Of a stretch of DNA of 22,635 nucleotides, positions 431-22,635 are shown piece after piece. The stretch is from Baffinella frigidus (taxonomy: Eukaryota > Cryptophyceae > Cryptomonadales > Baffinellaceae), in the NCBI GenBank assembly GCA_026770585.1, contig MU647161.1, positions 94,038-116,672 of the forward strand, read 5' to 3'. A model generated the notes under the pieces. That model saw only the letters and a program-made list of their open reading frames with translations. It was not told the origin of the DNA and ran no database searches. Position numbers and translations under genes: made by a program. Within the stretch, counting starts at the first letter, position 1; every line of letters starts with the position of its first letter.

Positions 431-467
431 GCAGGCGCGGCTGGTACAAGTAGTTGTTGATACCAAG

Positions 468-2073: not shown

Positions 2074-2102
2074 TCGATGAGAACTAAGTGTTTTTGAGGA
2101 TG

Positions 2103-3032: not shown

Positions 3033-3070
3033 AAAGTGTGTAGGCCAGGAGGGAGGGAAGGATTAGGAAG

Positions 3071-3119
3071 AACCGGTGGGTAGCGCAACGGATGTAAGAT
3101 CCACGTTACCCACCTGGTT
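3071..3119. repeat. Inverted repeat / stem-loop
   Basis: AACCGGTGGGTAGCG (3071-3085) pairs with CGTTACCCACCTGGTT (3104-3119): about 15 bp with one bulged base and one G-T pair around an 18-nt loop. It lies 39 bp after the nested hairpin at 2961-3032 and may belong to the same element. Not a tRNA: no cloverleaf arms or T-loop consensus. Confidence 0.5.
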
Positions 3120-3576
3120 GAGCACGAGACAGCCGGGCCTTTTGGCTGGAACCGTAAAAGAACCCTGTCTACAATGCGTCCGCTATCCGTAGCCCCCCGC
3201 CGAGTTGTACCATTTGAAGTTCAGGCTAGAGAATTTTAACATCAACATTTCCAGGAAAGACAGGGTTCCCGAGTGGTGAAACCTTGAAAAGAGAAAATTC
3301 CAAGGATTAAGACACGGGCCGATCGGTTTTCCAGTGTTTCTTAAATTGTAAGAACTTGCCAACGACGGTTTCCCCTGCTTTCCTTGTGATTCAAGAACGT
3401 GCCACCGTCCGTTCTCAGATTTCACCTTATGAGCGAGGTACCCCTGTACGCACCTAGCTAGAGGGTGCGAAAGGTAGAGGGAGCGAAAGCAGGATCGGAG
3501 CTTTCACTGGAGGATAGGTGCCTTCTCTGGAAATCGGAAAACGGCAGGCGCGTTGCCTCTAGCGTTGCCGTTCACA

Positions 3577-4168
3577 TCACATCTCGTCGGGTTCGAACGC
3601 GTGGCTCTGCGCTCCGGCACGCCCCTCTCCCACCCCCCCTCCAGCACCCTCTCCAGCACCCCCGTCAATACCCCGGCCCTTCTCCTCAGCATCATCGACG
3701 AAAGCTTCGATGAGATTCTCGTCGTCCGCCCGACTCCTGCATCCAGGCCCAGATTCGTCATGGGCACAAGCACTATGGGTGTCCTTGTGTAGAGAGAGAC
3801 AAGACGCCTGCATGCGTACGGCTGAGAAACGTGAGTTGTTCGAGAGACGTGAGACGCATCAGTTGAGGAAAGCTTTCACCATCTAGCGTGGGAATGTGAG
3901 TGGAGGTGAGATGAGATACAGGCAGCAAGGCAGGGCGGGGATCGCACTTGGAGAATCGCGTCTTGAGATAGTCCAGGGCAGGGTCGAACACGACGAGCTT
4001 TGCAATCTGCCACCAGGAGATGTCCAACGTCACAACTAACCGTCCGAGTCATCACGTCACAACCATCCTTTCCACAGAAATCGCATGCCAAGGGACAGCC
4101 ATCTCGCAAGCTGGGCACAGATCAGCGGCAAAGGCTGGCTCAAAGGAACGTGTTCTTACCGGCTCCAT
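3577..4168 (-). CDS. Small 75-aa acidic/glycine-rich protein, three coding exons
   Basis: Family not recognised. Coding exons on the minus strand are 4168-4160 (ATG GAG CCG), 4006-3948 and 3736-3577. Splice sites are CCG|GTAAGA to GGTGGCAG|ATT (phase 0) and AA|GTGCGA to GATGCAG|G (phase 2); the phases match and the frame closes at TGA 3579-3577. The start context GCCATGG is strong. The product begins MEPIAKLVVFDPALDYLKTR, continues with an acidic helix (DDENLIEAFVDDAEE) and ends in a glycine-rich, low-complexity tail (...EPDEM). No signal peptide or membrane segment. The 9-nt first coding exon is unusual. It lies about 200 bp downstream of the 119-aa membrane-protein gene on the same strand; I cannot exclude that the two belong to one transcript or that exon 3 continues differently. 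Confidence 0.5.
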
Positions 4169-4365
4169 GGCTTTCCCTCTGCCGCGTCCTTTGTTTCGCT
4201 TGTGCGGCTTCCTATCGCCAGTGTTTCGCTTGTCCTTCTTCCTATCTCCACTGCACGCCGGGAGGGACGATATTAAATGGGTGGAAGGACGGTCGTCACA
4301 CCATGGCTCTCAGCATCCGCAAGCGCTGGAGTGGGCAGAGATTATGGCGTGCCAGGGAGAGGATC

Positions 4366-4725
4366 TTACAGGCCGGGCCCGCTCCCCCGGTACGTGGACT
4401 TCTTGCCGTATGGGCCGTTGGAGCCGTGCTTGATGGGCACCAGCTCGGCTAGGACCAGAGGCGCCGGCATCGGGGAGCCATCAGCGGGCGGGCGGGTGTA
4501 GCTCATGATGAGCACGCGTTTGTCGCCCCGCGTGTTCGTTCCATCCATGACTTCGTACTTGCCCCTGTCGATCCGCCGGAGAAGTACGGCCCGCGCATCC
4601 ACCCACTGCTTGTCAAGCGGCGTCTTGCCAGACACCGCGTCCCAGAGTCCCTGGCGCCCGGTCCACCAGATGGCGAAGATAGCCGCAAACAGCATGATCG
4701 GCGCCTGCGCAGCCCAATTCACCAT
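4366..4725 (-). CDS. 119-aa single-pass membrane protein, function unknown
   Basis: A single open exon from ATG 4725 to TAA 4366 with coding-like codon use. Residues 5-22 (AAQAPIMLFAAIFAIWWT) form a hydrophobic segment without a basic N-terminus, consistent with a membrane anchor or an inner-membrane organelle subunit. The rest is soluble and basic, with a central WVDARAVLLRRIDRGKYEVM stretch and a Gly/Tyr/Lys-rich C-terminus (SNGPYGKKSTYRGSGPG). The size and layout resemble accessory subunits of organellar membrane complexes, but no family is recognised and that is only an inference. The stop overlaps a GTAAG motif, so an alternative spliced C-terminus is conceivable. Confidence 0.65.
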   Translation of the reverse strand: MVNWAAQAPIMLFAAIFAIWWTGRQGLWDAVSGKTPLDKQWVDARAVLLRRIDRGKYEVMDGTNTRGDKRVLIMSYTRPPADGSPMPAPLVLAELVPIKHGSNGPYGKKSTYRGSGPGL

Positions 4726-4779
4726 CCCGTGGTCCTTTCTGTCTCTCCTCTCCTCCTCCCCCTTGAAATGGTGGTCGTA

Positions 4780-5760
4780 AAGTCAAAGCACGTCAAAAGT
4801 GGCGGCCCGATCGGTACCAGATTTTAGCTTTCTCGCAGGATCTGTGCAGATCCCTTCTACGGAACGGCGTGTCGTTGGCATGTGTTGGCAGAAATTAAAA
4901 CCTCAAGGACCTAAATGATCTCGGCCTAAAGGAACTGCACATTTATGTTCCAGTGTCCGCCTATGTTGGGAGATCGAAGAAGAGGGAAAAATGTGATGCG
5001 AAAGGAAGAATGGGATTTTGTGAATGATAAGTTGAGGTGTGGGCCTATATGGTGGAAGTTAAAAGAACCTGATGGACCTAGACTCATGTGAGCTTTTAAA
5101 ACGATGGGATACCTTGGGCCTTCAGCCGACTTGTGTGGTCCTGGTGTGTGTGAGAGAGTGGCAACCAGCTGGTGTACCTTCGCATACCCGATGATGGTAC
5201 CCTTCAGCCGGATTCTGCTGCGATCCTCTACACCGGGGGGGGCTGATTCGATCCGAAAGGAAGCTTGGCCTTCCTGCAGAACCAGTTCCAGAGTCCGCGT
5301 ATGGTGGGAGTTCAAAGGACGTAAAGGATGCGATCCTACGGGCAGCAGGGCCTTTTTGCAAAATAAGTTTCAGTGTTCGTTTATGGTGGGAGCAGGGCAA
5401 CAAACACGTGAACACCACGTCAAAAGTGGCGGCTCAAACAGTGTTGAAGAAAATCTTCTGCCATGCGCCCCACTTCAGGACTGCCCTTTGGCCGATTTCT
5501 GCTTCCATCCGCTGCACCTGGGGGCGTGATGCGATTTGAAAGGACGCAGGGCTTCTCTGCAGAAGCAGAACCAGTGCCCGCATATGGTGGGAGCTCTAAG
5601 AACCTACAGGACATGCAATAACCTCGGCCTGTAGCAAGCCGAACGTGGGGACCACCCCTTAGCCAGTTTCTCTGAAGAAACCCCGCACTGGGGGGGCTTG
5701 ATGTGATCCTAAATGAAGCATGGCTTCTGTGCAGAATGTCAAGATGCTCGAGGATCCTAG
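4780..5760. repeat. Decayed tandem repeat of about 150-250 bp units
   Basis: This gene-free stretch is built from imperfect copies of one unit. Recurring landmarks are GTCCGC-TATGGTGGGAG (near 4955, 5045, 5297, 5375 and 5580), followed by AAAGAACCTAAAGGAC-like sequence, and GATGCGATCCGAAAGGA with CTTCTCTGCAGAA (near 5240, 5530, 5700). An 18-bp piece, CACGTCAAAAGTGGCGGC, is exact at 4789-4806 and 5416-5433. The copies sit in different frames with stops, so the conserved thing is the DNA, not a protein, although minus-strand translations echo short peptides such as ASFRI.S.PP. A related copy lies at 22559-22627, so the family is dispersed. Confidence 0.75.
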
Positions 5761-5879
5761 GCACGAGAAGTCTGTGACGGGATTCCAGGGAGCCCCAGGA
5801 AAAAACGGGATTGGTCGTCCGACCAGTGTAAAAGACTCTGCTTCGCTAACCCCCTTCGCCGCGGTCCTCGATTTTAAAT

Positions 5880-5885
5880 TTTATT
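5880..5885 (-). terminator. Poly(A) signal AATAAA of the giant gene
   Basis: On the minus strand AATAAA lies 50 nt after the proposed TGA stop (5938-5936), in an A/T-rich patch (AATAAAATTTAAAAT), and a TGTAAA sits just before it. Position and composition fit a 3'-end processing signal. Confidence 0.65.
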
Positions 5886-5935
5886 GACCAAGTGTACATT
5901 TACACGTAGAGTTTTGCAGCACAGCGGTTGGTACA

Positions 5936-7133
5936 TCAAACGAAGGCCATCTGGACCACGTCCTCCTCCCCGCTGGTCGTGTTCAGCCTTGCATTTGCTC
6001 CGCCGTTGCCATGCTGCGGGCGCGCGCGCGTGAGCAGTGTGCAGAAATGCGAGCAGGAGGCTAGCACGCAGTGCCTCGCAGCGTGACATGCCATGAGAGG
6101 GTGCGAGCGCGCGCGCAGTTACGCGGGACAGAGTCTAGCACGCGACAAATGCGCCGACGCTCGCAGGAGACGGGCACCAAGGTGCGCGAGAGACAAGGGG
6201 GGGACAAGACCTCGTGCATGCGACGGCTGATGAGGTCTGTCTCTTCGGCTCCGAGCTTCGACAGCGCCTCAGCAAGCGAATCCCGCGACAGCCCCTCGCA
6301 GACCTGCCACGTGCCACGTCCCGAACCACAGGATCTGAGTCAGACCACCATGCCCACTTGACAGGCAGCCTCGAGAAGGGCGCGCGTGCGGCGGGGCGAG
6401 TGGAGAGGGCGAAGCAGGGCGGGAAGAGCACCGCAGGGAAGTTGTCCTCGGAGCGCGCCATGACGAGCGCGGCCGCGCGCTGGCTGGGTGCGAGCGCCTC
6501 GAGGAGCCTTGCCGCGACTGCCGGCGCCATCCTCCCCAGCGCGCCCACCATCGCCGCCTGCCCCCACGCCACCAGCCACCGCACCCACCCGCCTCAGCAC
6601 ACGCGCCCGCGCACTGCGGTTAGCACACTGACACCGCGGTCCTCGCCTGGCAGTGGGGTCAAGAGGGGCGCAGGGCTGCGTCCGCGGGTGGCGTTGGCCT
6701 GAAAGAGCAGGGAGGGGGGTGCTGGGCGACAGACCGGGTCGAGCTGGCGGAGCACGGCGCGCGCGTGGAGAGCCTCTCTCGTCCCTCCTGCCACCCGCGG
6801 ATCCAGCGCCGCCAGGGCCACGGCCCGGGCGGGGGGTGGGAGGCTCTGGATCTCCAGCGCTTTCAGCACCTGCCACCCGCCGAAGAGAGACTTCTCAAGG
6901 TCAGGACCAGCCGACGAGTGCGCCAGTCACCGTGTCGCTGCGGCAGAGGTCCAACCCTCTCGCTGTGCGGAAGTCATCTCTCGTGGGCAGCGCATGGTTG
7001 GGCGCACCCATCGGAGGCAGGGAGCGATCTCGTTTCGGGGACGAGGGTCTGGGTCTGGGATGGGGACCGCTTGGGAGAGGTCGCGCTGGGCTGACGAGTG
7101 ATCCGAGGACAGCGATCGCAGCGCCTGCGCCAT
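5936..7133 (-). CDS. Giant gene exons 16-20: helical-repeat tail and stop
   Basis: Exons 7133-7008 (donor GTGCGC; alternative end 7068 with donor GTCCCC), 6869-6735, 6557-6432, 6303-6211 and 6013-5936, all phase 0. The middle exons each carry one or two short amphipathic helices of a common style: LPPPARAVALAALDP, RMAPAVAARLLEALAPSQRA, RDSLAEALSKLGAEE. The spacing recalls the helical repeats of MgtE-N/FliG-type domains, but that likeness is by eye only. The last exon encodes HGNGGANARL...VVQMAFV and TGA at 5938-5936, with the poly(A) signal 50 nt further on. Confidence 0.7.
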
Positions 7134-10100
7134 CTGCGCGCGCGGCAGGGAGGGGTGGTCAGTGCTGGAGTGCCTTGCCTGCCACGGCGGGTGCACCCTG
7201 CGTGCGTGTGAGGGCGGGTGCGTCAAGGTTGCCGGCGCAGGGCAGGGCGCGCAAGCAAGCAAACACACGGCAGGGACGCACCACACTCTCTGGCGCGCCA
7301 GACGCGGCCCACTCGCCAGAACGCTCTCCAACCGTTCTCTCGCCCTCGGACCCCATGCTAGAGTCAGCCCCTCTCGCCCCGAACGCTGATCGCCCCCCCA
7401 GCGAACCCCGCGGAGAGCCAAAGCTGGAGATGAGCATCGCCGCCTGCTCCTCGACGGTCATCCGCTTCCTCCCTCCTCCCCCGCTCCTCCCCGCGCCCCC
7501 ACTGCTGCCCCCTGCCCTCGCGCTGCTGCTCTGAGGCCCCGGTGCGCGTCGAAGCTCCGGCAGCAGCAGCGCAGATGCGTTGGCCCCTGGCTCGAGCACG
7601 GACTCCAGCATCGACGCCCGCCGCGGAGAAGCGGCTTCATGCGGAGAGGACACGGGGAGGTGCGCGGTGATGGAGATGGCGGGGGGGGAGGCGCGCGCGA
7701 TCAGCGCTTTCTTGGGCGACGCCGCTTGGTTCGCAGGGGCAGGGACAGAGGCAGAGGGAGGCTGCGCGGGGGTCGTGTCCCGCGTCGCGTCCGGCGTTGC
7801 CTGGGCTGCTGCGGGAGGTGTAGGAGAAGGTGGCGTCCTCGCCATGACGGCGGCGAGCAACTCGCGCGCCTCGCGGAGCGCTTCCCCCTGCCGCTCGGCC
7901 TCCGCCGCCTGCTCCGTCGCGCGCGCTGCCTCCTCGGCGGCCTGCTCACCCGCGAGCGTCTGCAGCCGCTTGCACTCCGCCCGGAAGCTCGCCGAGTCTG
8001 CTTTTACCTGCGCTACCTGCCACCAAGTACACCCAGCCTGGTCAGCCATGCGTCCCGCGTACCACACTGCTTACGACGGGAACGCGCGCCAAAAATGAAG
8101 GCTGCCGCGGAGGGAGGGAGAGAGGGAGAGAGGGAGGGAGGGAGGGAGGGAGGGAGGGAGGCACCTTGACATTCTCCTTCTCCACCGCCTCCGCCAGCTC
8201 CTGTGGAGAGAGAGAGAGAGAGAGAGAGAGACGCGCCAACCGTGTCATTGGCAGGGGCGCTGGTGGTCGACACCAGCGTAATCACTTTCAAGTGGCGAGG
8301 GTGTTCCGAATTCGCTAGGCAGGTGAACCCGGAGCTGTCCCCGTGCAAAGGAATTGCACGGAGCGAAGTGGGCTGTTCGGAAAGGGAAGGGCAGCGCACC
8401 TCAGACTCGGCCGTGAGTGTCCGGAGAGACTCGGCAGCAGCGACCAGGGCCGCGAGCAACTCGATGCGTTCTTGCGTGTGCCGCGCCACCTCCTGCTCGA
8501 CCACCGCCATCTCCGCCTGGCGCTCCTTGTTGATGTTCGCCATCTCCTCAGAGTGTTCACCAACCACTCGCTCCATCTGCCTCCGGTGGTCATGCATGAC
8601 TTGCTCGAGTCGTGTGCAGTGGTGGGCTGCCTCGTCCTCGAGGTGCATGCGGTGGCGGGCAGCCGCCTGCTCGACGTCCGTGCGGTGCTCGCCCGCCACG
8701 CGCGCTGCCTCCCGCTCCTGTTCGGCCACCAGACGCCGTACTTCCGCGGCACCTTCGCCCGCCATCTTCTCCACCACCGCCTCCTGTCCATGTCACGCTC
8801 GTCACATACTCTCCCCTAAACCGGGTTGCAGGGTCGCAGCCAGCACATAGGGTCGCAGAAGGCAGCACCTAGGGCAGGGGGCAGGCCCCGTACAGCGATG
8901 GGGAATCGTGGCGGTGCCAGAAAGGAAGTGAGGACAGGTGAGGAGGAAGGGCGGGTCGTGCTGTGGCAGCGGCGGGAGGGTGCGTGACTGGGATGCACGT
9001 GCTGCCAAACAATTTTGACTGAGTGACTGACTGAATGAATGAATGACTGACTGACTGGCTGACTGGGTGACTGGCTGACTGGGGGGGGCAGACCTCGCGT
9101 TGGGCCTCCTCGCGGTCGGCGCGGCACGCGGCAGCCTCGCTGTCCCAAGCATGCAGTGCTGCCCCCGTGCGGCGCTTCTCGGCTGCCCTCGCCGACCACG
9201 CCACCACCCCCGCTCTGGCCCGAGTCTGCTTCCTCCCCACACCCAACGTGTCAGCCACACCCATCACCATCCTCGACGCCGTGCGATGCTGTGGCCGACC
9301 GATGCAGGGTGGTGCTATGGCTGCAAGGCATGATGCGTGCGGTGCTTGATTGTTTGAGGGGAGGGCATCTCGCCTGGCGGTTCTGCGCGTGCTCGAGGTC
9401 GGCGCGGAGACGCAGAGAGTTGGTCAGCAGCCGCTCCCGCTCCTGCCACCAACCACGGATCGTCAGAGCCTCTATGCAAAGCTGCTGTCAAGTTGACAGG
9501 TACGCTCCGCCGAGCCGAGCCAGCTTAGCCTGACTGGGAGTGAACTGATTGGTGGAGGAGGGTGCCTCAGAGGGTGCATGGGGGGGGCAGGTTGCGAGAG
9601 GGACCTGAGAATGCTCGCCGAAGACGAGGGAGAGATCGAGGATCTGGAGATCAACCTCGTCCGACTTTCTTGTCAGTTCCTCCCGGAGCGCCACCACCTC
9701 CTGCCCGAGCAACTCCACCCGCCCTTCTGCCGCCTGCAGGGAGGATACACCCGCACCAGCCACTCACCCTCCCACCCACTCACACCCACACCCACACAGA
9801 GCGTGCTTGCGCGCTGCGCCGCCTGTCTGGCCGAGACTCTCGAGGCAAGGGAGGAGGGGAACGCTGGCAGGGATCGCAGGAGGGATCGCAGCAGGGCACA
9901 GCAGGGCGGCAGCGAGGCACGCAACGCTGCTGGCCCGCCGTGGGGCCCTGGTGGTGCTGGCAGGCAGACGAGGTCCCGCTGGCAGGCCTGGCGCGGCTGG
10001 CTGGGTACGCTTGGTGGCGTGGCCGTGGCACGCTGGTTGCTACGCCTGGCACGTACCGTGGCACGCGTCTCGGCGCGCTTGCGCTGGTGTTCCGAGTCTG

Positions 10101-10780
10101 TGAGAAGATCGACCACGGCCGCGCGCCCATGCTCCTCCCGCTCCCGCAGCTGCGCCCCAAGGGGGTCTCCGCGTCACCAACTCTCGAGCACTCTTTACGT
10201 TGAGGACCGCCACTTCTGCATCATGTTGTCGGCAACGCATTGCAAGACACTTTGGATTCCTGTGTGTAGTGTAGCAGATTCGACGGGGCGTCGACCCGCT
10301 GTCTACAGTTGCGATCGAGTGGTGGTGCGGGTGGACTGCTTGGCCTCGGACAATCGAGGCGGGAGGGGGGCACGAGGACTCACATCGGACAGGGCAGCCA
10401 AGAGCTGGTCGCGAGCACTTTCCGCATCCGCGAGCGCCGTGATGCGCCTTGCTGTCGCCGCGCTCTCTCTTTCGTTGTCTCTCGCTCTCTCGCTCTCCTC
10501 GGCCTGCAACCATCAGAGCCCACCCCAGGGAGGCCGTCAGTCGCCTTCCATCAAGTCTGGTGTCGTCAACAGGGTCACATCGCAGCCGCTGACCCTGCAC
10601 CAGAGCCCCAACCATCCGGCAGAAGGTGGTTTGGATGGACGCGTGTGCTGGATGCAGAAGGTTGCACTGGCGATGCTAAGCCGCGGGAGGCGGGGCGAGC
10701 ACGAACACCCTGCCCGGTGGGCAGGGTGAAAAAGAGAGAGAACGCGCGCGAGAGAGAGAGAGAGCGCGCGAGAGAGAGAG

Positions 10781-10820
<40 letters not shown>

Positions 10821-13800
10821 CGAGCGAGAAGCGAGAGGGAGAGGGAGAGGGGGGACCTGGATGGCGGTGGCGGTGTCGGCAGCCTGGAGGGCGGCAGCGC
10901 ACACAGCCTCCTCGCATGCCGCGAGCGTGGCCGCAACCTCCCTCCCCTCGAGCAGCCTGCGCTTCTCGCGCGCGAGGAGCGCGAGGCTGGCCCACCCCTG
11001 AAGCGCGTCGTGCAGCGCCCCCCCCCTGCCCATCCCGTACACCCGCTCCACCTGCTCCGAAAACCCGCGCGCGCACGTGCGTTACACAACCACTTGGCCC
11101 GGAAACCAAAACAGTCTCCGTAGCCAGCAGGGAGGCAGGCATGCAGTGTGGTTGATCAACGATTGGCCTGCAGTGAGAGCTGGAAACCGGCAGGCGAGCG
11201 GTGGTCGGGCAGCCAGGCTCCCTGCCCCCCTGGCATCTGGCCAGATGGGGGACGCAGGGCAGGGGCCGCCACGTCTCCAGCGAGCGTGCGGGCAATGTTA
11301 AAAATAGCCAACACCAGACTATACAAGACGGGGTTCAGGGTCTAGGATGCAGTGTTTGGGATGTAGAGTTGGGGGGTTTGCGGGAGGCAGGGGGGAGGAC
11401 GCACCGCGCGCGAGAGCATCTGCCGCACACGGTCAATCTCGCGGTGTGCAGAAGATGCTCTCTCATCCCCCTCCTCCCCCGCGGCCCGCGCACGCTGCAG
11501 CGCGTCCTGCGAAGCGGCATTCGATGCCTTCTCTTGCTGCAAGAGCGCCTCCTCCAACGCACGCGAGGCATCCTGCTCTCGCGTCACCGCTTCCTGCCAC
11601 GCCCTGCCAGCCTCCTTCTCCGTCTCCACCTCCGCCCGGGCACCGCTCAGCAAGTCGAGCGTCTCGGCATGCGCTGCCTCGTGCGCCGCCCGCGCGGCGT
11701 CTGCCTCTGCCGCCATTGTCCCACGAGCCATCTCATCTGTCTCCAGGGCCTCGGGGTGCGCTCGCTCGCGCGCAACTGCCTCGGCAAGCTCGGAGCGCGC
11801 CACGGCAGCCTCTGCCTCGACAGTGTCCACGCGCGCCCGCAGCACCATCGCCTCCCCGCGCGCCTCCTCCAACGCGGCAAGAGCCTCGCGGTGCAATTGC
11901 GCGGCCTCAACAGTGAGGCCCTCCTGCTCGACGAACCTCTCGACCTCCGCCTCCCGCGCGCCAGCCTCCCGCCCCGCCGCCTCCCGCCCCGCCTCCGCAG
12001 CGCGCTCTTCCTGCTCCACCACCGCCCGCTCCAGCCCTGCAGTCTCCTCTGTTAACGCGGCTGCCGCCTCTCGCGCCTCCGCCCGCACCTTCTCCAGCTG
12101 CTCCGTCAGACCTGCCACCTCCCGCGCTGTCTGGTCCGCCTCCCCCGCCTTGGTTGCAGCCACGCCTGCCTCGAACCTGGCCAAACTCTCAGCGTACTCC
12201 TCCAAGAAGATTGCAGCATCAACCAGTTCAACCTCACACACACAGAGTTTCTCCACCAGCTGTCGCACCTCACTCTCGAACCCCGCCTTTTCAGCTGCAA
12301 ACGCCGCCACCAGCCCCGCCCGCTCCGCCTGGTTCTTCTCCGAAACCTCGTCAAAATCCTGGAGGTGCTGATCGCACTTCGCAGCATGTTCGGAATGCGC
12401 TGACGAGAGCCGCTCCTCCGACGACTCGACCCGCGCAGCCATCGCCTGGAGCTTGACGTCCGCCTCCCGCAGGGCCTCGTCCTTCGACTGCATGTCTGTC
12501 TCGCGCTCTGCGGCGTGATCTGCCAGGCTGGTCTCACTGGCGGCAAGCTGCTGTTTCAGGTCTGCACTGCAGAGGGCCTCCTCCATCTGCCTCGAAAGCA
12601 CCACCTTCTCCTCCCCAAACGCCGCCACCAGCCCCGCCCGCTCCGTCTGGTTCGTCTCCAGAATCTCGCCAAGCTCCTGGATGTGCTGATCGCACTTCTC
12701 CGCATGATCGGCATGCGCTGCCGAGAGCTGCTCCTCGAGCCCACAAACTGTTGACTTGAGGTGCTCCACCTCCCCCCGGGCGCTGCTCAGCAAGCCTCGC
12801 TCCTCCTCCTCCTGTCTCGCCCGCTCGGCAGTGTCCTCCTCCATTTTCATCTCGCAGGCTCGCAGCTTATCCCGCAGATCCTGCGACTCTTGCCCACGAG
12901 AAGCCTTGGCAGGATCGAACAACGCTTGGTCCAGCTGCTTCTCCAGCCCAGACTTCTCCTCCCCAAACGCCGCCACCATCGCCGCTTGATCCGCCAGGTT
13001 CTTCTCCCGAATCCCGCCAAGCTCCTGAATGTGTTGATCGCACTTCGCGGCATTCTCGGCGTGTGCTGCCGAGAGCTCCTCCTCCAGGGACAAGCGTGCC
13101 TCTGTCGCCCCCAGCTTGATCCGCGTTCCTTCCAGAACTTGCAGCGCGGCCGCCTTGCCCGACTGCACCTCCGCGAGCGCACTCTGCAGCTTTGCCCGCT
13201 CTAGCGCGAAGAGGGCCTCGGCATCTCGCAGCTCCTGGCGGTGCTCCTCCAGCGCGTCGTTCATCTCAAGCACGTTGTCCACAGCCTCCCTCTCATTCGC
13301 AAGCGACTCATCCAGCTGTTCGCGAAACTCTTCCACCTCCCGCGCCACCGCCGCATGCTCCTCTTCCCCCCACCCAAGCCCTGGGGCCCCCTCCCTCTCT
13401 TCCGAGCCCTCATTGAGCGCTGCCGTGCCCTCCTTCGTTTGTCGCAGCAGCTCCTCGAGAGAGGCGACCTTGCTGGTGAGCGCTTCCTTCTCTGTGGCGG
13501 CGGCCGCAGCCTCCTCCCGCGCTGCGCTGGCCGTTGAAAGCTGCTCGCGCACCGCCAGCATCTCCTTCTCCAAGGAGACATTGGCAGCCTCCAGCTCCTG
13601 CACCGACTGCGAGAACCTCTCGGCCTCAGAGCGCAGGTGTTCCCTAAGGACTGCCACTTCCCCTTGAGCCAAATCCTGGTTCTGCTTGTGCCGCATCTCC
13701 GACGCTTGGTCCAGCTGCCTCTCAAGCACCGCCTTCTCCTCCCCAAACGCCGCCACCAGCCCCGCCCGATCCGCCAACTTCTCTTCCATAATCTCGCCAA

Positions 13801-16800
13801 GCTCCTGGATGTGCCGGTCGCACTTTTCGCACAGGCTAGAAACTGTTGACCTTAGGTGTTCAACCTCCCCCCGGGCACCGCTGAGCAAGTCGCGCGTCTC
13901 GGCATGCGCAACCTCGCGCGCCACCCGCGCAGCGTCTGCCTCTGACGCCACTGTCTGTTGCCCGGCAACCACCTCGGCGAGCTCGAAGCGCGCCACGGCA
14001 GCCTCTGCCTCGACAGTGTCCGCGCGCGCCCGCAGCACCATCGCCTCCCCCCGCGCCTCCTCCAGCTTCTCCGTCAGCTTCTCCACCTCGCCCATCCCCG
14101 CTGTTGCCTCCCGCAACTGCTCGCACCGCCCCGGGATTACCCATTTGCAACGACCAATCAGGGCAGACACGAACCAGAACCCGCATGTGCCACAGACCCC
14201 GTGTGCCGTCTCTTCCCCCCTGGCCAGAAGAGACGGCACACGGGGCACGCGAGAGAGACAGGCATGGGGGGGGAGGGGGGGGCAGAAAGGGAGCGTGCCT
14301 GGTCCTCGAGGGCGGCAAGAGCCTCGCGGTGCACGGCCTCGACGCGAAGACGCTCCTGCTCGACGCGCTTCTCGACCGCTGCCTCCCGCGCACCAGCCTC
14401 GCTGTTCGCCACCTCTCTCCCCGCTTCCGCTGCACGCGCCCGCTCCTCGTGCTCCGCCAGCGCCCGCGCCAGACCGGCCTTCTCCTCCCCGAACGCGGCG
14501 TCCGACTCTCGCGCCACCGCCCGCACCTTCTCCAGCTGCTCCGAAAGACCTGCCAACTCCTTTTCTGTCTTGTCCGCCTTCTCTGCCTTGCCCGCCTCCA
14601 GATTCGCCAAACTCTCGGCGTAGGCCTGCAAGAAGCTCCCAGCATCCAGCAGCTCCACCTCACTCACCCGCAACTTCTCCACCAGCTTGCCAAGCTCTTT
14701 CTCAAAAGCTGCCCGCTCCGCCTGGTTCGTCTCCAGCATCTCGCCACGCTCCTGGGTGTGTCTATCGCACTTGGCAGCATGTTCGGAATGCGCTGACGTG
14801 AGCCGCTCCTCCGACGAATCAATCCGCACAGCCATCTCCTGGAGCTTGACGTCCGCCTCCCGCAGGGCCTCGTCCTTGGACTGCATCTCTGTCTCGCGCT
14901 CTGCCGCGTGCTCTGCCAGACTGGTCTCACTCGCAGTTCGCTGCTGTTTCAGCTGCGAAAGATCCTGGTCGTGGGCTTCTGCGCTACAGAGGGCCTCCCA
15001 CACCTGTCTCTCAAGCACCGCCTTCTCCTCCGCAAACGCGGCCACCAGCCCCGCCCGCTCCATCTGGTTCTTCTCCGAAATCTCGCCAAGCTTATCAGTT
15101 CTCGTCTCCAGAATCTCGCCAACCTCCTGGATGTTCTGATCGCACTTCTTGACATGATCGGCATGCGCTGCCGACAACTGCTCCTCCAGCCCACAAACTG
15201 TTGACTTGAGGTGCTCCACCTCCCCCCGAGCGCTGCTCAGCAAGCCTCGCTCCTCCTCCTCCTGCTTCGCCCGCTCGGCCGTGTCCTCCTCCATCTTTAT
15301 CTCGCAAGCTCGCAGCTTTTCCCGCAGATCCTGCGACTCTTGCCCACGAGAAGCCTTGGCAGGATCGAACAACGCTTGGTCCAGCTGCCTCTCCAGCCCA
15401 GACTTCTCCTCCGCACACGCCGCCACAAGCCCCGCCCGCTCTGTCTGGTGCGTCTCCAGGATCTCACCAAGCTCCTGGATGTGTTGGTCGCACTTCGCGG
15501 CATGAGAGGCATGCGCTGTCGACAGCTGCACCTCCAACGACTCAACTCGCACAGCCATCTCCTGGAGCTTGACGTTCGCCTCCCGCAGAGCCTCGTCCTT
15601 GGACTGCATGTCTCGCTCATGCTCTGCCGCATCGTGTGAAAGGCTTGCATCACTCGCGGCAAGCTGCTGCGCCAGATCCTGGTCGCGCGCACCTGCGCTG
15701 AACAGCAACTTCCCCACCTGCCTCTCCAACCCCGCCTTCTCCTCCCCAAACGACGCCACCAGTCCCGCTCGCTCCGTCCGATTCTTCTCCAGAATCTCGC
15801 CATGCTCCTGGATGAGCTGATCGCACTTCTTGGCTTGTTCGGCATGCGCTGCCGAGAGCTGCTCCTCCAGTGACACCACCGTCGCTCGCAACTGGTCCAC
15901 CTCAGGCTGAGCAGCGGAACCACGCTCTCCTCGCCCATCCGCCTCCTTCTCCTTCTCCAGCCCTTCAATCTTCTCCGCGAGAATCTTGGCCACGAGAAGC
16001 GCCTCCTCCAGGCCCCGTCGCATCGAAGACGCCTCCTCGCCGGCCGCGGCACACGCCGCCGTCGACCCAGCAAGATCGGCATCCAGGGCCGTGGTGCGTT
16101 GCTCGAAATCTCGGTGCTGCTGTGCCTTCTCCTCGAGAGACTTGGCAACCAATGTTGCCATTTCTTGCACCTTGCCCTCGGCCTCGACGAGAGACTCGTC
16201 CATGACAAGCATGTCGAGCTTGACCTCTGCCGCGAGATGTGCCAGGCTGGTCTCACTCGCGGCAAGCTGCTGTGTCAGGTGCGCCAGCTCTTGGTCTCGT
16301 GCCATGGCCTCTGCGCCCAAGATGGAAGACTGCCCCACCTGCCTCTCCAACCCCGCCTTCTCCTCCTGAAACGCCGCCACCAGCGCTGCCCGCTCCGTCT
16401 TGTTCTTCTCCAAAATCTCGCCAAGCTCCTGGATGAGCTGATCGCACTTCTCGGCATGAGAAGCATGCGCTGCCGAGAGCTGCTCCTCCAGGGACACCGC
16501 CGTCGCTCGCAACTGGTCCACCGCAGGCTCCCTCTCGCGCTGCGCCCCCGTGTCGTCGAACAACGCCCTGTCCAGCTGCCTCTCCAGATCCGCCTTCTCC
16601 TCCTCCCACTTGGTGCGATCCGAGCTCCTCTCCTCCGTCGTCGCCGCGACCTCGCGAGAGTGTCTCTCCTCCGCCGCCGCAACCTCTGCCTGCAACCTCT
16701 GCACCTCCGCCACACGCTGCTGCTCGACTCGCCCGGTCTCCTCGAGAGACGCGGCATCTGCAGCTATCCCACTCTCCGACGTACGGGGCGCGCCGTGGCG

Positions 16801-19800
16801 GGCGTGAGCGAGCTCGAGCCCGACGCGGCGCTTGCCATCTTCGAAGGCAGCCACCAGCTGCTGCCGCTCCTCCTTGTGCCTCCCGCGCTCCCGCGCCATC
16901 TCCGTCATGTGCGTCTCAAGCTCCTGCCGCCGCGCGGCTTTCACGTCTGCAACCTCCTGCGCCAGCTTGCCGCACTTCTCCTCCGCACTCTCGGGAGACA
17001 GGCCCGCCGCGGAACCACGCTCCCCTCGCCCATCCGCCTCCTTCTCCTTCTCCAGCCCCGCAATCTTCTCCGCGAGAATCTTGCCCACGAGAAGCGCCTC
17101 CTCCAGCCTCCCCCGCATCGAAGACGCCTCCTCGACGGCCGCGGCACACGCCGCCGTCGACCCAGCAAGATCCGCATCCACCTTCGCCTTGCCTTGCTCA
17201 AACGCCGCCACCATTTGAGCGGTGTCTTTCTGGTGTTTCAGCTTCGCCTCGGACAGCTGCGTCATGAGGCGTGACACCTCCCCCTTCAAATCTTGGCTCT
17301 CGGTGTTGATGCCCGACAAGGCGAGGGTCGCCTCTTCCTCAGCCGATCCTGCAGTCGATGCGAAGCGTGCCTCGGTTGCCCCCAGCTTGATGCGCGTGCC
17401 CTCGAGCACTTGCAGCACGGCCGCCTTGTCCGCCTGCACTCCCACGAGCGCACTCTGCAGCTCCGTCCGCTCCAGCGCGAAGAGGGCCTCGGCATCCCGC
17501 AGCTCCTGGCGGTGCTCCTCGAGGACGTGGTTCATCTCGAGCACGTGGGCGACATCCTCCTCCTCGTGAGTGTCGCGCTCTTTCCGCGCCTCCGCACGCG
17601 CCTCCACCACCTGCTCCCGAAGCTCTTCCACCTCCCGTGCCACCGCCGCCTTCTCCTCCTCCCAGCCCCCAACCAAGGCCGCCCGCTGTGCTGAGCCTTC
17701 CTTCTCGGAGGCTGATGTGGCAGCCTGAGCCTCGAGCCTTGCCGCGCGCTCCTTGCCTTCCGTGAGGGCTGCAACTTGTTGCGCGAGAGCTGCCTTCTCA
17801 GAAGCCAGCTTCTCGACGCCCTCCACCTCACGCTTGAGAGCCTCTCCCTCTCGCCGCAGAAGCTCTGCCTCCCCCTTCAGCGCCTCCGCCACTCCCTTGA
17901 GTTGCTCGCACTCGGCGCGCAGCTCCGCCACTTGCGCGGCCAAATTGGTACTCTCCGCCGCGTGCGCCTCCGCATCCTCCGCCCGCGCAGCAGCCATGTC
18001 CCTCGCCTCATGCACCTGCGCGGCCAACTCCTCCTTTTCCGCAGCGTGCCTCACCTCCTCCGCAGCAGCATCCTCCGCCAGACTCGCATCGAGTGCTTGA
18101 GACTCCTCGACCCACGCCGCAGACTTCTCGCGCGCCTCCTCCACTTGCGCGGCCAACGTCTTGCTCTCATCAGCGAATGCCTGTCTCTCCGCCGCTCGAG
18201 ACTCAGCTTCATCAGCTCGCTCCCTGCCATCCGACTCCTGCTTGGCGATTTCGCGGTCCAACGATTGCCGCAGCTCCGCCTCGATTGAGTCGACCGCGGC
18301 GGTGAGGGCGTCAACTTGATCGCGGGCATCCTGTTCGCGCGCGCTGCTCTCGGCAAGCGCCGCATCAGCCGCCTGCCTTCCCAGTGTCTGCACCTCCCGC
18401 GCGGCCGCCGCGCCCGCAGCCACGCGCGCCTCCTCCTCGACGCTGGCCTGCAACGTAGCGCTCACTTCCGCGAGGAGCTGCGTCAGCTCGGCAACCTCGC
18501 CCTCCGCGACAGCCCTCTTCACCTCGCTGGTGGCCAGCCGCGCCTCGAGCGTCTCGCACGCGTGCCGCGCTACCGCCAGGCCCTCACTCTCGCTCTCGCC
18601 CGAGACGTCGCGTGCCACCACCCACCCCTCGTGCGCGCCAGCACTCGCCCGCAGCTCCCGCACCTCGTCCTCCAGTCTCGTGCGCGCGTCCTCGAGCTGG
18701 CACACCGACCCCGCGAGGGCGTCGCACTCTTCCTGCAGGTCCAGCGCCCTCTGCTCGGCCGCCGCCGCCTCCTCGCGTGCCACGCGCTCGGCCGCGGCCA
18801 TCGAGTCGAGCGCCTCGTCGAGCGGGGAGGACTGCGGCGGCGGCAAAGCGTGCGAGGAGTCCGCGATGGCGAGGGCCACCATGTCGTCGAGCTCGCGCCG
18901 CATCTCCACGATGGCCGCGCCTGACCGATGTGTCTCGATAGCCGCGCGCTCCGAGGCCAGGAGCGCCTCCTCCCGCAACCACTCCACCTCCGCCTGGCAC
19001 GCCCGCAGCGCCTCCTCCGCCGCCTCTCTCCCCCGCCGCGCTGCCCCGCCCTGGTCCTCATCCGCCGCCGGCTCGTCGGCAGGCTCGTCGGGGGTGGCGG
19101 CGGCAAGTGCGAAGGCGTCGAAGGCGGCAGCCAGGTGGTCGGTGCGCACTTGGGCGAGGACGCGGGCCTGCGTCTGCTGCTGCCAGGCGCGACAAGCCGC
19201 GAGCGTCTGCTCCACCGAGTCGCTGTGCGCCGCGCACGCCGTCAGCTCCCTGCGCGAGCGGGAACGTGCCGTTAGCGTCTTGTCACTGAGTCAGAGGACA
19301 CCTCAACTCACTGGAGAGGTACTCGCTGTGGTTTCACGGAGGCTGACGGTGCCGTGCAGAGCGGGAACGTGTACACTCTTCATGCATTCTCCATTTTTTT
19401 TGGCTGATAATCCCTAAACACTGATTAGGGTTAGGGTCTAGGGTTGAGAGTTTGGGGTTTAGGATTTAGGGTTGAGGGTTTAGAGTTGAGGGTTTGGGTT
19501 GAGGGTTGAGGGTGTGAGGTTTGGGGTTTAGGATAACCTGAACCCAAAATCCGAACATCTCAACCCTGAGCCCTAAACCCTAAACCCTAAATCCTAAACC
19601 CTAAACCCTAAACCCTAAACTCTAAACACCTTTAACCCTAACCCCTAAACCCTAAACCCTAAACTCTAAACCCTAAACCCTAAACCCTAAACCCTAAACC
19701 CTAAACCCTAACCCCTTAAACCTGAACCCTCGATGCCAAACACTAATGACCAATCCATGAACCATGAACCGTAAACCCTCAAACATATACCATGAACCCT

Positions 19801-22281
19801 AACCCCTGAACCCTAAACACTGAACCCCAAACCCTGACAAATAAACCCAAACCCCTAAACCGTAAACCCGAAACCCGAAACCAGAAACTCGCAACCCGAA
19901 ACCCCAAACCTAAAACCCTAAACCCTACACTAAACCCTAACCCCTAAACACCAAACCCTAAACCCCAACCCTAAACCCTCAACACTCAACCCTGAAAAAT
20001 AAACCTGAAACCCTAAACCCTAAACACTAAACACTAAACCCCAAACCCTAAACACTAAACCCGAAATCCTAAACCATACACCCTCAACCATAAACCATAA
20101 ATCCTAAACCATAAACCATAAATGCTAAACCATGCACCATAAACCATAAACCATAAACCATAAACCATAAACCATAAACCATCAACCATAAACCATAAAC
20201 CATGAACCATAAAACCGTAAATCATAAACCATACACCATAAAACAATAAACAATAAACAATTAACAACAAACAAAAATCATAAACCATACACCATAAAAC
20301 ATAAACCATTGACCATACACCACAAACCAAAACCCCTCAACGCTGAACCCTAAACCCTGCGACCTAAGCCCTGAACCCTCAGCCCTCACCCCTAAAGTCT
20401 TAACCCATGATCCATGATCCCTCAACCCCAATCCCCTAAACCTGAAACCCTGAAACCCGAAACCCCCAAACCCCACAATTCCAAGCGCTCAACAACCTCT
20501 TCACTCCTAAGCCCCCTCCCCTGCCCCGCTCTGAAAAGAATACTAAGAACTAAAAACTGAAACCCTGAAAAAAATCAATCCCTCAAACCAGCGTCCAAAA
20601 ACACTGAACCCCCTAAACCCACTACCCTACCCTAGAAACCTAGAAACTCCACAACCCCAAACATCACAACCAAAAAAAAAACAAGCGACCAACAAACCCG
20701 AAAACCCTACAACCCCAACCATGCCTTACCCCAGAACCCTGCCCTACCCTACCCACTCTCTGAACCCTGAACCATACCGACCCTAAACGCTACGGAGCAT
20801 GTGGCCCTGGCGCGTACCAGGTGAGGACGTCGACAAGCTCAGAGCGATGGTTATCGCACTCGGTCTGCGCGGCCAGAAGCTCCTGCAACTCCGACGCCTC
20901 GCGCGCGGCCGCTCCCTGCTCCCCACGCGCCCCCGCTGCACGTCAGCAAACTCTCCCGCGCGCGCTGCAGCCCGCGCGCCCGACACAGCATACTGCGCGG
21001 CAACCTGGTTGGTCTGGGTACACGGCCGCCGCCGCCACGGCCGTGCCACGTCGGGGGGTTGGCGGGCGACCTCTAGCTCTGCCTGAGTTTATTCTGGCTT
21101 GCCCTCAAAACTATTCACGAGCAGAAAGCCAGCACAAAAAGGCGAATATAATGCCTTACGAGCGAGCCAGAATTAAAACTGAGGCAGAGCTAGGACCTGC
21201 AGCTGCGAGAGGCCCGCCTCGATCGAGGCCTCCACCTCGAGGGAGCGGTCGGGCGAGCGCCCGGTCGGCGTCACGGCCGAGGCGCCCGAGGCGGGCGTGC
21301 CGGCGCCCTGCTGCAACAGAAGCGGGTCCAGGCCCTCGCGCAGCGCGCCCACTGCCGAGGCTGTCGATCGCTGCCCGCTCTCCAGCGTCGCCGCCGCTGC
21401 CTGCCGTCACCCACCATGTCACCTTCTGCCTGTGTTGTTGTGTGGCGGTGAAAGGTCTGTGAGGGTGCTCGGTCTGGCGGTTGGCGTGGTTGTGCTCCAT
21501 GAGAGGCAGGTGACCTGGACACGAGACTGGAGAAGCTCGTATTGCTCGACTGAGGCGCGGTACGAGGCTGATTTGACCATTGCTTCCCGCGCGCTCGCGA
21601 GGATCCCCTCCCACCTCCCCGTCTTCTCGCGCTCCGCCGCCAGCTCTCCGCGCGTCGCCACCAGCTCAACCTCCATCGCGTGCATGTCTTCCGCCATTCT
21701 GTCGTTGAGGCGCAGGCTTTCTTCCAGCTCGTCGTCCTGGTTTAGGGTTTAGGGTTTAGGGTTTAGAGTTTAGGGTTTAGGGTTTACGGTTTACGGTTAA
21801 GGGTTTAGGGTTTAAGGTTTAGGGTTTAAGGGGTTTAGGGTTTGGTGAGCACCTTTATCGCGAGGTGCTCACGAAGCGCGGCGAGCTCGGCTTTGACACT
21901 GAGAATGTCCTCGCCTTCAGCGAAGGGCGTCATCGGCGAATCGCCGATGAGTCTGTGCTCTCGTTCAGAGCGGCGGGAGCTCATCATCAGAGTGGGCGCT
22001 CTGCCACCGGCAGAACTCCCTTTCACCTTTTCGGTCGGGCTAGCCGCTGCTGAGCCCAAGGGCGTGGTCTCTGGCGTTCCGCTGTAGTCGTCATCGCTCA
22101 AGGGAGTCTCGGGTTCGGACTCGTCCCATGGCGGAGTCACCGCACCCGTTGACTGGGTGTCGGGCGAGGCCCCTTTCGAACCGAATGAGGTCATCCTGGA
22201 AGATTTGCTGCCGCGCCGACGCTGCCCCTCCAACTGACCTGGCCCGGGCATCTCACCCGGATGCTCCTGGTCCTCCTCCAT
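5936..22281 (-). CDS. Giant coiled-coil protein, about 3,670 aa, about 20 exons
   Basis: Spliced model, minus strand: 22281-21853, 21736-21515, 21400-21197, 20915-20818, 19249-14299, 14116-11405, 11051-10857, 10503-10384, 10149-10057, 9733-9656, 9442-9374, 9225-9094, 8783-8400, 8200-8165, 8016-7282, 7133-7008 (or 7068), 6869-6735, 6557-6432, 6303-6211, 6013-5936. Every junction keeps the frame; all are phase 0 except intron 20817-19250 (phase 2). Domains in order: a disordered Ser/Thr-Pro head; a very long Ala/Glu/Leu coiled coil with KCDQ..IQELGEI repeats; more coiled coil on short exons; a Ser/Pro linker; a helical-repeat tail ending VVQMAFV. No enzyme motif, signal peptide or membrane segment. 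Architecture resembles centrosomal, Golgi or cytoskeletal scaffolds, but no orthologue is recognised. The weakest joins are exon 4 and the 1.57-kb intron; if they fail, the gene splits into a 5' gene (22281 to about 20818) and a 3' gene starting near 19383. Confidence 0.65.
7282..8016 (-). CDS. Giant gene exon 15: end of coiled coil and Ser/Pro linker (245 aa)
   Basis: Acceptor GGTGGCAG|GTA (8017/8016); donor AGTGTG|GTGCGTCC (7282/7281). The first about 75 residues are helical (AEEAARATEQAAEAERQGEA). The remainder is disordered and rich in Pro, Ser and Ala, with basic SP sites (ASPKKALI, ASPRRASMLES), a Gly-rich run and a short helix (MTVEEQAAMLISSF). This marks the change from rod to tail domain. 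Confidence 0.7.
8106..8160. repeat. GGGA/GAGG microsatellite in intron 8164-8017
   Basis: GGGAGGGA-type repeats. On the sense (minus) strand they form a long CCCT pyrimidine run directly after the 5' splice site of the 36-nt microexon. Confidence 0.9.
8165..8783 (-). CDS. Giant gene exons 13-14: coiled coil and 36-nt microexon
   Basis: Exon 13 (8783-8400, 128 aa) runs from GACAG|GAG to GAG|GTGCGC. It is a His/Glu-rich coiled coil with repeats of about 11 residues (VAGEHRTDVEQAAARHRMHL, DHRRQMERVVGEHSEEM). Exon 14 (8200-8165) is only 36 nt and encodes ELAEAVEKENVK, between a CT-repeat ending CCACAG and a donor GTGCCT followed by a CCCT-repeat. Both are phase 0. Confidence 0.75.
8206..8231. 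repeat. GA/CT dinucleotide repeat forming a polypyrimidine tract
   Basis: About 13 GA units on the plus strand. On the sense strand this is a CT run ending in CCACAG, so it serves as the polypyrimidine tract of the acceptor of the 36-nt microexon. Confidence 0.9.
9016..9082. repeat. TGAC-type tetranucleotide microsatellite
   Basis: TGACTGAC/TGAATGAA/TGGCTGAC variants in tandem, lying within intron 9093-8784 of the giant gene. Confidence 0.9.
9094..11051 (-). CDS. Giant gene exons 7-12: coiled coil on short exons (229 aa)
   Basis: Exons 11051-10857 (65 aa), 10503-10384 (40), 10149-10057 (31), 9733-9656 (26), 9442-9374 (23) and 9225-9094 (44). Each begins after a CAG acceptor, is a whole number of codons and is in phase 0. 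Donors are GTCCCC, GTGAGT, GTACGT, GTTGAT, GCGAGA (a GC-AG intron) and GTCTGC. The peptides are charged helices, for example AEESERARDNERESAATARR, QEVVALREELTRKSDE and ACRADREEAQRE. Exon 8 starts as an in-frame GA-rich microsatellite. The introns (148-353 nt) carry microsatellites. Confidence 0.75.
10731..10850. repeat. Long GA microsatellite with CGCG interruptions
   Basis: About 120 bp of GA repeats broken by three or four CGCGCG blocks, in intron 10856-10504. On the sense strand it is a CT-rich run close to the 5' splice site. Polypurine tracts next to CGCG stretches are prone to triplex and Z-DNA structure. Confidence 0.9.
11405..14116 (-). CDS. Giant gene exon 6: second coiled-coil rod (904 aa)
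   Basis: Acceptor GCGAGCAG|TTG (14117/14116), donor GCGCG|GTGCGTCC (11405/11404), phase 0 at both. It is continuous coiled coil with four further KCDQ/R modules. Much of it is a diverged copy of exon 5: the HREALAALE-to-ARGEAMVLRARVDTVEAEAA section occurs at both ends of the intron region and again near 11830-11890, and blocks at 12370-12960 match 14760-15410. Confidence 0.85.
12370..12960 (-). repeat. Intragenic duplication, partner at about 14760-15410
   Basis: From the GAATGCGCTGACG motif through the blocks around 12740-12960, the sequence nearly repeats that at 14760-15410 at an offset of about 2.4 kb. Runs of tens of bases are identical, including silent positions, around 12745-12795 and 15195-15245. 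This points to a fairly recent duplication or gene conversion between exons 5 and 6. Confidence 0.8.
14197..14245. repeat. Perfect 19-bp inverted repeat inside intron 14298-14117
   Basis: CCCCGTGTGCCGTCTCTTC (14197-14215) is followed after 11 nt by its exact reverse complement (14227-14245). It occupies the middle of a 182-nt GC-AG intron of the giant gene. The hairpin would be very stable in RNA; it may be a small transposon remnant or a hairpin that brings the splice sites together. No target duplication is evident. Confidence 0.9.
14299..19249 (-). CDS. Giant gene exon 5: main coiled-coil rod (1,650 aa)
   Basis: An uninterrupted 4.95-kb frame from acceptor CGCGCAG|G (19250/19249) to CAG|GCACGC (14299/14298). 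There is no usable ATG near its start (the first lies about 110 codons in), which supports an upstream exon. After a short N-terminal helical segment and an acidic linker (TPDEPADEPAADEDQGG), the rest is near-continuous coiled coil rich in Ala, Glu, Arg, Leu and Gln. Five KCDQ/R modules lie between about 14750 and 16460 and two weaker VAAFE.GK modules upstream. Two blocks near 15900-16080 and 17000-17185 are near-duplicates. Antisense frames stay open for hundreds of codons purely because of the GC-rich codon bias. Confidence 0.85.
15900..17185 (-). repeat. Pair of near-identical blocks (15900-16080 and 17000-17185)
   Basis: Both blocks encode the same segment (ACAAAVEEASSMRG-like, then AKILAEKIEGLEKEKEADGR-like, GERGSAA) and differ at only a handful of nucleotides. 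They are separated by about 1.1 kb inside exon 5. This is a second, independent intragenic duplication. Confidence 0.8.
19417..20790. repeat. Telomere-like block with head-to-head orientation switch
   Basis: From about 19423 to 19535 the plus strand carries TTTAGGG-type units. From about 19555 to 20790 it carries CCCTAAA-type units, nearly perfect around 19570-19710 and increasingly degenerate after that. The switch at about 19535-19555 has the TTTAGGG...CCCTAAA polarity of two telomere ends joined. The right end (20480-20790) is AC-rich and only loosely telomeric. In the gene model the entire block lies inside intron 20817-19250. Confidence 0.9.
20085..20310. repeat. ACCATAA variant heptamer sub-array
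   Basis: About 20 or more copies of ACCATAA (the CCCTAAA unit with one C-to-A change), followed by an AACAATAA run. The same two variants occur in the left array (about 57-115). A shared variant register suggests the two arrays descend from the same subtelomeric sequence. Confidence 0.85.
20818..20915 (-). CDS. Giant gene exon 4 (about 32 aa, 5' boundary uncertain)
   Basis: The clear coiled-coil stretch AAREASELQELLAAQTEC, followed by SELVDVLT, ends TG|GTACGC (phase 2), matching the phase-2 acceptor CGCGCAG|G of the next exon at 19249. The upstream boundary is weaker: GGGGAGCAG|GGA (20916/20915) keeps the frame. Better-looking acceptors upstream (GAGCTAGAG|GTC at 21071/21070, CAACCAG|GTT at 21005/21004) open another frame that would need a frame change around 20920-20965. 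That may mean a hidden intron, a sequence error or decay. Confidence 0.5.
21068..21198. mobile_element. MITE-like terminal-inverted-repeat element, 121 bp, 5-bp target duplication
   Basis: The left end CTAGCTCTGCCTGAGTTT (21073-21099 in full) is the near-exact reverse complement of the right end (21165-21193); the roughly 27-bp arms differ by one mismatch and a small indel. Immediately outside, GACCT is repeated exactly at 21068-21072 and 21194-21198, a target-site duplication. There is no coding capacity in the 65-bp centre, so it is non-autonomous. It lies in intron 21196-20916 (or 21196-21071) of the giant gene, and its right duplication, AGGTC on the sense strand, contains the exon 3 donor. 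The superfamily is not assignable from one copy. Confidence 0.8.
21197..21400 (-). CDS. Giant gene exon 3 (68 aa)
   Basis: Acceptor GACGGCAG|GCA at 21401/21400; donor CTGCAG|GTCCTAG at 21197/21196. It encodes an Ala-rich helix (SAVGALREGLDPLLLQQ), a Gly/Ser/Thr/Pro linker with TP and SP sites, and a short helix (SLEVEASIEAGLSQLQ). Phase 0 on both sides. Its donor lies inside the target duplication of the inverted-repeat element at 21073-21193. Confidence 0.65.
21515..21736 (-). CDS. Giant gene exon 2: coiled coil (74 aa)
   Basis: Opens directly after ...CCCTAAACCAG|GAC at 21737/21736 with DDELEESLRLNDRMAEDM and continues as charged helix (VELVATRGELAAEREK, VEQYELLQSRVQ) to CAG|GTCACC. Phase 0 at both ends; 222 nt is a whole number of codons. 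Confidence 0.75.
21737..21852 (-). repeat. Intron made of telomeric heptamers (116 nt)
   Basis: On the sense strand the intron begins GTGCTCACCAAACCC, continues as CCCTAAA units with a few variants (CCTTAAA, CCGTAAA, CTCTAAA), and ends CCCTAAACCAG. Only about 10 nt at the 5' end and CAG at the 3' end are not telomeric. The exons on both sides are in phase 0 and in frame. Confidence 0.8.
21853..22281 (-). CDS. Giant gene exon 1: start codon and disordered head (143 aa)
   Basis: ATG at 22281 (TTCAATGGAG) begins MEEDQEHPGEMPG. The exon is Ser/Pro/Gly-rich and hydrophilic, with many Ser-Pro and Thr-Pro pairs (ASPD, VTPP, ETPL, GTPETTPL, ASPT, DSPMTP), the signature of targets of proline-directed kinases such as CDKs or MAPKs. 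Its last about 20 residues become helical (LSVKAELAALREHLAIK). The exon ends AAG|GTGCTC at 21853/21852 in phase 0; reading through gives a stop within the telomeric intron. Confidence 0.75.
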
Positions 22282-22407
22282 TGAACCCTCTGGAGTGCTA
22301 ACGTGCCCTCAGGGAGAATGAACTTCTCGGTCCCCACCCGATAAAAAGTCAAATCGGCAACTTTTTGGTATTTTGTTTGACAGGCAAAATCTGTTTAATT
22401 CATCCTT

Positions 22408-22458: not shown

Positions 22459-22558
22459 CTCACCCTTTATCCCCTCTAATCAACGAAATCAACTCTTCAC
22501 GAGCCTCTGCACTGGAGAGCTAAATGCGATCCGAAAGCAAAAATGCTTTCTCTGCAGT

Positions 22559-22627
22559 CCTTTCTACGGAAGGGCGTGTCGTTGGCATATGTTGGGCGAA
22601 ATTAAAACCTAAAGGACCTAAAGGACC
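22559..22627. repeat. Dispersed repeat copy, matches 4852-4920
   Basis: From CCTTTCTACGGAAGGGCGTG to the end the sequence tracks 4852-4920 with only scattered changes, including CGTGTCGTTGGCAT and GAAATTAAAACCT. The preceding GCGATCCGAAAGC...TTCTCTGCAG (about 22525-22556) matches a landmark of the tandem repeats at 5240 and 5530. It probably continues beyond the window. Confidence 0.85.
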
Positions 22628-22635
22628 TTTAGAAA

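Follow-up and report, generated by a model that had tools for sequence, protein, structure and literature searches.

Can a telomeric array that interrupts a coding exon be removed as an intron, and how would it have come to lie there? These questions are raised by a 22,635-nt stretch of DNA from the cryptophyte Baffinella frigidus (contig MU647161.1 of assembly GCA_026770585.1, forward-strand positions 94,038 to 116,672; hereafter the window, in whose own coordinates all positions are given), in which a gene on the minus strand is split by a 116-nt block built almost entirely of CCCTAAA repeats. On the sequence evidence we consider it likely that this block, here called intron 1, is a spliceosomal intron gained when telomeric DNA was inserted into a coding exon during the repair of a double-strand break.

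Results

A telomeric array between two open exons

Intron 1 (21737..21852, minus strand) begins with GTGCTCACCAAACC and ends with AAACCCTAAACCAG, and in short form its borders read GTGCTCACCAAACCC...CCCTAAACCAG. Between these non-telomeric ends, Tandem Repeats Finder placed an array at 21739-21843 with a period of 7, 14.7 copies and 88% matches. Exact telomere heptamers, counted in any rotation and on either strand, made up 75.9% of the 116 nt, and 93.1% lay within one mismatch of such a heptamer, compared with 0.2% and 3.7%, respectively, in the region 431-19424. Seven edits (6.7%) convert the 105-nt core into a perfect (CCCTAAA)n array, whereas shuffled versions (n=30) required a mean of about 43 (41%). 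The array is therefore real and not a product of chance, in a window whose G+C content is 62%. Its position is not terminal, which makes it an interstitial telomeric sequence. The other arrays of the window are further from perfect (15.8% at 1-430, 14.8% at 19425-19532 and 19.5% at 19562-20465), and together the arrays suggest that CCCTAAA is the telomere unit of the species.

The block is flanked by two open frames on the minus strand. Exon 1 (21853..22281) comprises 429 nt and 143 codons (MEEDQEH...LREHLAIK), and exon 2 (21515..21736) comprises 222 nt and 74 codons (DDELEESL...LLQSRVQ), with a coiled-coil-like appearance by eye. The two exons join in phase 0 (...AIK|DDEL...), and retention of the array in the transcript would lead to a stop after 148 codons (...AIKVLTKP*). 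The GT...AG ends and the in-phase junction of its exons are those of a GT-AG spliceosomal intron, and intron 1 would be removed by splicing in the cell.

To compare possible splice-site choices we tested 80 GT-AG pairs, at least 40 nt apart and within 120 nt of the array borders. An open frame was kept by 22 of them, but a single pair yielded the exact equivalent of the protein found in relatives. This is the pair at the array borders, the one chosen in an earlier note on this DNA, which had described the block as a complete intron; its boundaries and the phase 0 join are supported. Among the remaining candidates, the donor GTGAGC at 21872, 20 nt upstream, gave three open products, all of which drop or change residues, and donors 45 or 47 nt upstream gave 11 more, in which residues are dropped.

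The CCCTAAA unit contains neither GT nor AG, whereas in the TTTAGGG orientation there is an AG in each unit and a GT between units. The only AG in intron 1 closes it; of its three GT dinucleotides one opens it and the other two fall in mutated CCGTAAA units. Because the array lacks AG and carries GT only in mutated units, the C-rich orientation offers no internal acceptor and almost no rival donor. The predicted splice sites are themselves junction sequence and not repeat.

The site is uninterrupted in two relatives

The spliced exon 1-exon 2 protein was used to search a database of ∼5.8 billion proteins, from which 3480 candidates were scored. Two homologues were found, P0002 with 73% and P0003 with 70% identity, and the alignment with either takes in 100% of the query. 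P0002 is identical to exon 1 at 105 of 142 aligned residues and to exon 2 at 61 of 74; the corresponding figures for P0003 are 99 of 141 and 58 of 74. At the K143|D144 junction neither homologue has gained or lost a residue in the alignment, the junction peptides being LSIK|DDEL and LSIK|DEEL in the relatives and AIK|DDEL in the window (more fully, LSIKDDELQETL and LSIKDEELQETL compared with AIKDDELEESL). At the protein level, the orthologous locus is thus empty in both homologues, at the same codon boundary, and this supports the earlier proposal that telomeric DNA was inserted into a coding gene.

The relatives also indicate what kind of sequence they represent. P0002 and P0003 are identical at 70 of the 74 residues before the donor of intron 2 and at 9 of 56 (ungapped) after it, the drop occurring directly after SRVQ, where the window reads CAG|GTCACC. 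Intron 2 (21401..21514, minus strand; 114 nt, GTCACC...GGCAG) is non-telomeric, and the frames of both relatives appear to continue into it. Because their mutual identity falls exactly at this donor, the two proteins seem to be unspliced genomic frames, and their DNA probably has no insert at the intron 1 site. A profile search for further relatives, scoring the 7997 candidates with the most words in common, returned the same two proteins only. Pattern scans gave 29 matching stretches in viral contigs and 169 in prokaryote genomes with no relative among them, although either scan may omit records near the window's own.

Borders of the insert

Before insertion, the empty site would have read ATAAAG|GACGAC. 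Either border carries the trinucleotide AGG (AAAGG|TGC... and ...CCAGG|ACG), and because it overlaps both, the splice contexts are AAG|GT on one side and CAG|G on the other. Eight positions of the 651-nt coding sequence read AAG|G or CAG|G, and the insertion point is one of them, as survivorship would equally produce.

An inverted repeat spans the 5′ splice site (21842..21875, minus strand), with one arm in exon 1 (21875-21863) and the other at 21854-21842. It contains 10 perfect base pairs around an 8-nt loop and matches at 92% over 13. Over its first 8 nt the insert is complementary, in reverse, to exon 1 bases no more than 40 nt away, which favours a copy made during repair: of 100,000 random 9-mers, 97 gave a match of at least 8 and 364 a match of at least 7. 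A 51-nt piece around the border is predicted to fold at −20 kcal/mol (z −3.05, equalled by 4 of 200 shuffles), and a 149-nt piece gives a z of −4.43 (equalled by 0 of 200), with the array itself predicted to be unpaired. On the plus strand the end of exon 2 runs into TTTAGGG, which is the direction of telomerase synthesis.

Other introns and telomere-rich sequences

Downstream of intron 2 a predicted exon 3 (21197..21400, minus strand) continues as a phase-0 open frame, AAAATLESGQRS...GLSQLQ. The predicted intron 3 (21071..21196, minus strand) is occupied by a 121-bp element with terminal inverted repeats (TIR; 21193-21073) that is flanked by two copies of AGGTC. Its inverted ends are CTAGCTCTGCC, and the AGGTC copies supply AG|GT and AG. 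With TIR and a 5-bp AGGTC duplication, intron 3 is predicted to fit the pattern of introners. BLAST within the window found no second copy, only its own arms, and the 17-base TIR pattern had 11 matches in viral contigs, the number estimated to arise by chance.

A further intron, intron 4 (19250..20817, minus strand), is predicted by sequence only. It would be 1568 nt long, follow a partly delimited exon 4 and lie in phase 2 (TG|GTACGC...GCGCAG|GGAG), ahead of a downstream coding part (14161..19249, minus strand) in which 1696 codons are open from 19248 (ELTACAAHSD...) and whose far end may enter an intron. Telomere heptamers with at most one mismatch account for 69.2% of intron 4, compared with 10.4% of the whole window and 3.7% of 431-19424. 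On the plus strand Tandem Repeats Finder shows a TTTAGGG array (19425-19532) and a CCCTAAA array (19562-20465) that face each other as in a telomere fusion; the adjoining 20466-20790 is 36% from a perfect array, barely better than shuffled sequence. No relatives spanning intron 4 were found at an E-value of 1e-6 among 7995 candidates scored. Within the CCCTAAA array, the segment 20088-20298 has turned into CCATAAA units and holds 15 of the 17 CCATAAA of the window on this strand, a secondary homogenised variant.

At the start of the window (1-433) lies a degenerate CCCTAAA array that ends in CCCCAAAGCAG|GCGCGG and is followed by an open frame at 541-1371 on the plus strand; this array could be another telomere-rich intron, or subtelomere. 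Its last part (328-434) matches intron 1 at 84% from base 8 to the end. Elsewhere, 22549-22628 and 4841-4921 share a dispersed repeat that is 88% identical over 81 bp, and a 21-base pattern from it had no match in viral contigs. Seven proteins scanned with Pfam at E-values up to 0.1 gave no match that attained the curated cut-off of its family, and Rfam had no match in the whole window at the gathering threshold.

Discussion

A candidate route of intron gain

From the observed array, borders, phase and hairpin, and from the uninterrupted protein of the relatives, we infer the direction of gain and a route of repair. In the lineage of the window, the coding exon would have suffered a double-strand break at AAG|G and been repaired with a short telomere array, whether by telomerase addition, by capture of an array fragment or from reverse-transcribed telomeric RNA. 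The 3′ end of exon 1 may have folded back, copied a few exon bases and let go, leaving GTGCTCAC at the 5′ border. The AGG overlap at the borders would then have provided AAG|GT on one side and CAG|G on the other, so that the spliceosome could remove the whole insert and leave the protein unaltered.

Several points weigh against this reading. Intron 1 contains no CTRAY branch site in its 116 nt and no T-rich tract ahead of its 3′ end; two YTNAY sites are present (positions 4 and 53 of 116), outside canonical units, although this consensus may not be the species' own. Given these signals, the absence of GT and AG from the unit and the junction-derived splice sites, the earlier suggestion that the telomere unit is pre-adapted to splicing is not supported. 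The 5′ splice site lies within the predicted 10-pair stem and could be hidden there; of all sequence features, this modelled stem speaks most strongly against efficient splicing. As a trace of repair the hairpin must be read with care: the chance test was made post hoc, when the hairpin had already been seen, and the window has five perfect inverted repeats of 10 bp with loops of up to 20 nt, including a further one within exon 1 (21930-21950). An AGG overlap of 3 bp does not suffice to prove a staggered break. At the borders as read no break base is in telomere register, the base before GGTTTAGGG on the plus strand being T, and for this reason telomerase involvement is no more than possible. 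P0002 and P0003 might also be partly spliced metatranscript contigs, with intron 1 removed and intron 2 kept, which is possible but considered less likely than genomic frames. Finally, three sequences form an unrooted tree in which gain and loss are not distinguishable, and the case for gain would be weakened if arrays are re-homogenised; the sub-array at 19562-19730 is 7.7% from perfect and thus nearly as intact as intron 1.

The state of the frames was compared with simulated neutral change, a procedure that presumes an insert nearly perfect on arrival. The downstream frame extends over 5088 nt with no stop; none of 300 simulated copies remained open at either 4% or 6.7% change, and 12.7% and 2.3% did so at 1% and 2%. 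For exon 1 (1000 copies, no indels) 46.9% remained open at 5% change and 30.1% at 8%, with 0.4% when 1% indels were included, and taken alone the stop simulation for this exon is weak. If the insert did arrive nearly perfect, the open frames favour a working gene.

Alternative explanations

An older intron could have stood at this site and later been filled or replaced by telomeric repeats, with a clean loss in the relatives, for example by cDNA recombination. P0002 and P0003 share 89% identity in exon 1 and 95% in exon 2, compared with 70-82% to the window, and because they are closer to each other, a single loss on their stem costs no more changes than a single gain; short non-telomeric ends also persist inside intron 1. 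We nevertheless regard this history as unlikely. Intron 2 has diverged nearly beyond recognition between the lineages (translated identity between window and relatives of 4/31 and 9/31, ungapped) while the array is 93% perfect, unless arrays have been re-homogenised, and the 5′ end of the insert looks as if repair had patched it with a copy of exon 1 bases. It is for these reasons that gain is favoured.

If, on the other hand, the insertion were recent and simply disruptive, the locus would be a pseudogene, encode a truncated protein of 148 residues or depend on a restart in exon 2, which has an ATG at 21697. The stop shortly after the start of the array, the donor's location within a predicted stem and the further telomere-like arrays close by would all suit such an event. 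Its probability is lower still in our view, since both flanking exons are conserved with no frameshift or stop, the GT-AG pair at AAG|G restores the frame exactly and 1696 downstream codons are open. The presence in the same gene of intron 3, with its introner hallmarks of TIR and an AGGTC duplication, and of a predicted intron 4 rich in telomere repeats might instead suggest that telomere repeats form a mobile element, similar to introners, which spreads as a family. This seems highly improbable for intron 1, which has no TIR (none of five inverted pairs in 21000-22300 joins both of its ends) and only a 3-bp overlap; moreover, among 97 rows of a BLAST comparison of intron 1 with the window, only the self-match includes any of its first five bases.

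Gain of intron 1 by repair of a break also permits a wider and more tentative view, which we hold to be possible but doubtful, namely that this lineage repeatedly makes spliceosomal introns from telomeric DNA. Inserts would survive on AG|G sites, the C-rich orientation would be tolerated because it contains no internal GT or AG, and intron 4 would be an older, larger example. If such gains recur, telomere content would be a direct marker of break-repair intron gain. Even as a single case the locus is informative, as the inserted DNA would reveal where it came from, the place of the break is legible and each predicted splice site leads back to bases of a junction.

Comparison with known systems

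Introners are DNA elements with TIR that make introns (PMC12730881, PMC9481584). Intron 1 resembles them in that it would owe its splice sites to bases which insertion left duplicated or shared, an arrangement that intron 3 also fits, and differs from them in having no TIR and only a 3-bp overlap. A splice-site mechanism for introners was reportedly described by Huff et al. in 2016.

Seven routes by which introns are gained have been listed, break repair among them (PMC3443670), and introns gained in this way in Daphnia carry exon-derived direct repeats of 4-12 bp (PMC4202315). Intron 1 would share with the Daphnia introns an apparently precise insertion at a break and a short overlap of its ends (PMC4202315, PMC3443670), the AGG overlap of 3 bp being shorter than the 4-12 bp reported there (PMC4202315). 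In neither paper does the main text use a word beginning with "telomer", and among the titles and abstract starts listed for this question in an open-access library none described introns derived from telomeric DNA.

A close parallel for the inserted sequence comes from mammals, where telomeric sequences have been inserted at break sites whose orthologous loci are empty (PMC7215372). Bases in telomere register at the break, the signature of telomerase, are found at many of these loci but not at all, and are not required at each (PMC7215372). Intron 1 is like these insertions in its telomeric array, its apparently empty orthologous site and its extra non-telomeric border bases, and as for the mammalian arrays, insertion in one piece appears probable (PMC7215372). 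In humans, 31% of interstitial telomeric sequences lie in introns of coding genes and none in exons, as stops would arise in both orientations (PMC7215372). The present locus points to a possible tolerance of telomeric insertion within an exon, where the human survey found none: in contrast to the human insertions, the insert in Baffinella frigidus would itself be the intron, and it lies in a coding exon (PMC7215372).

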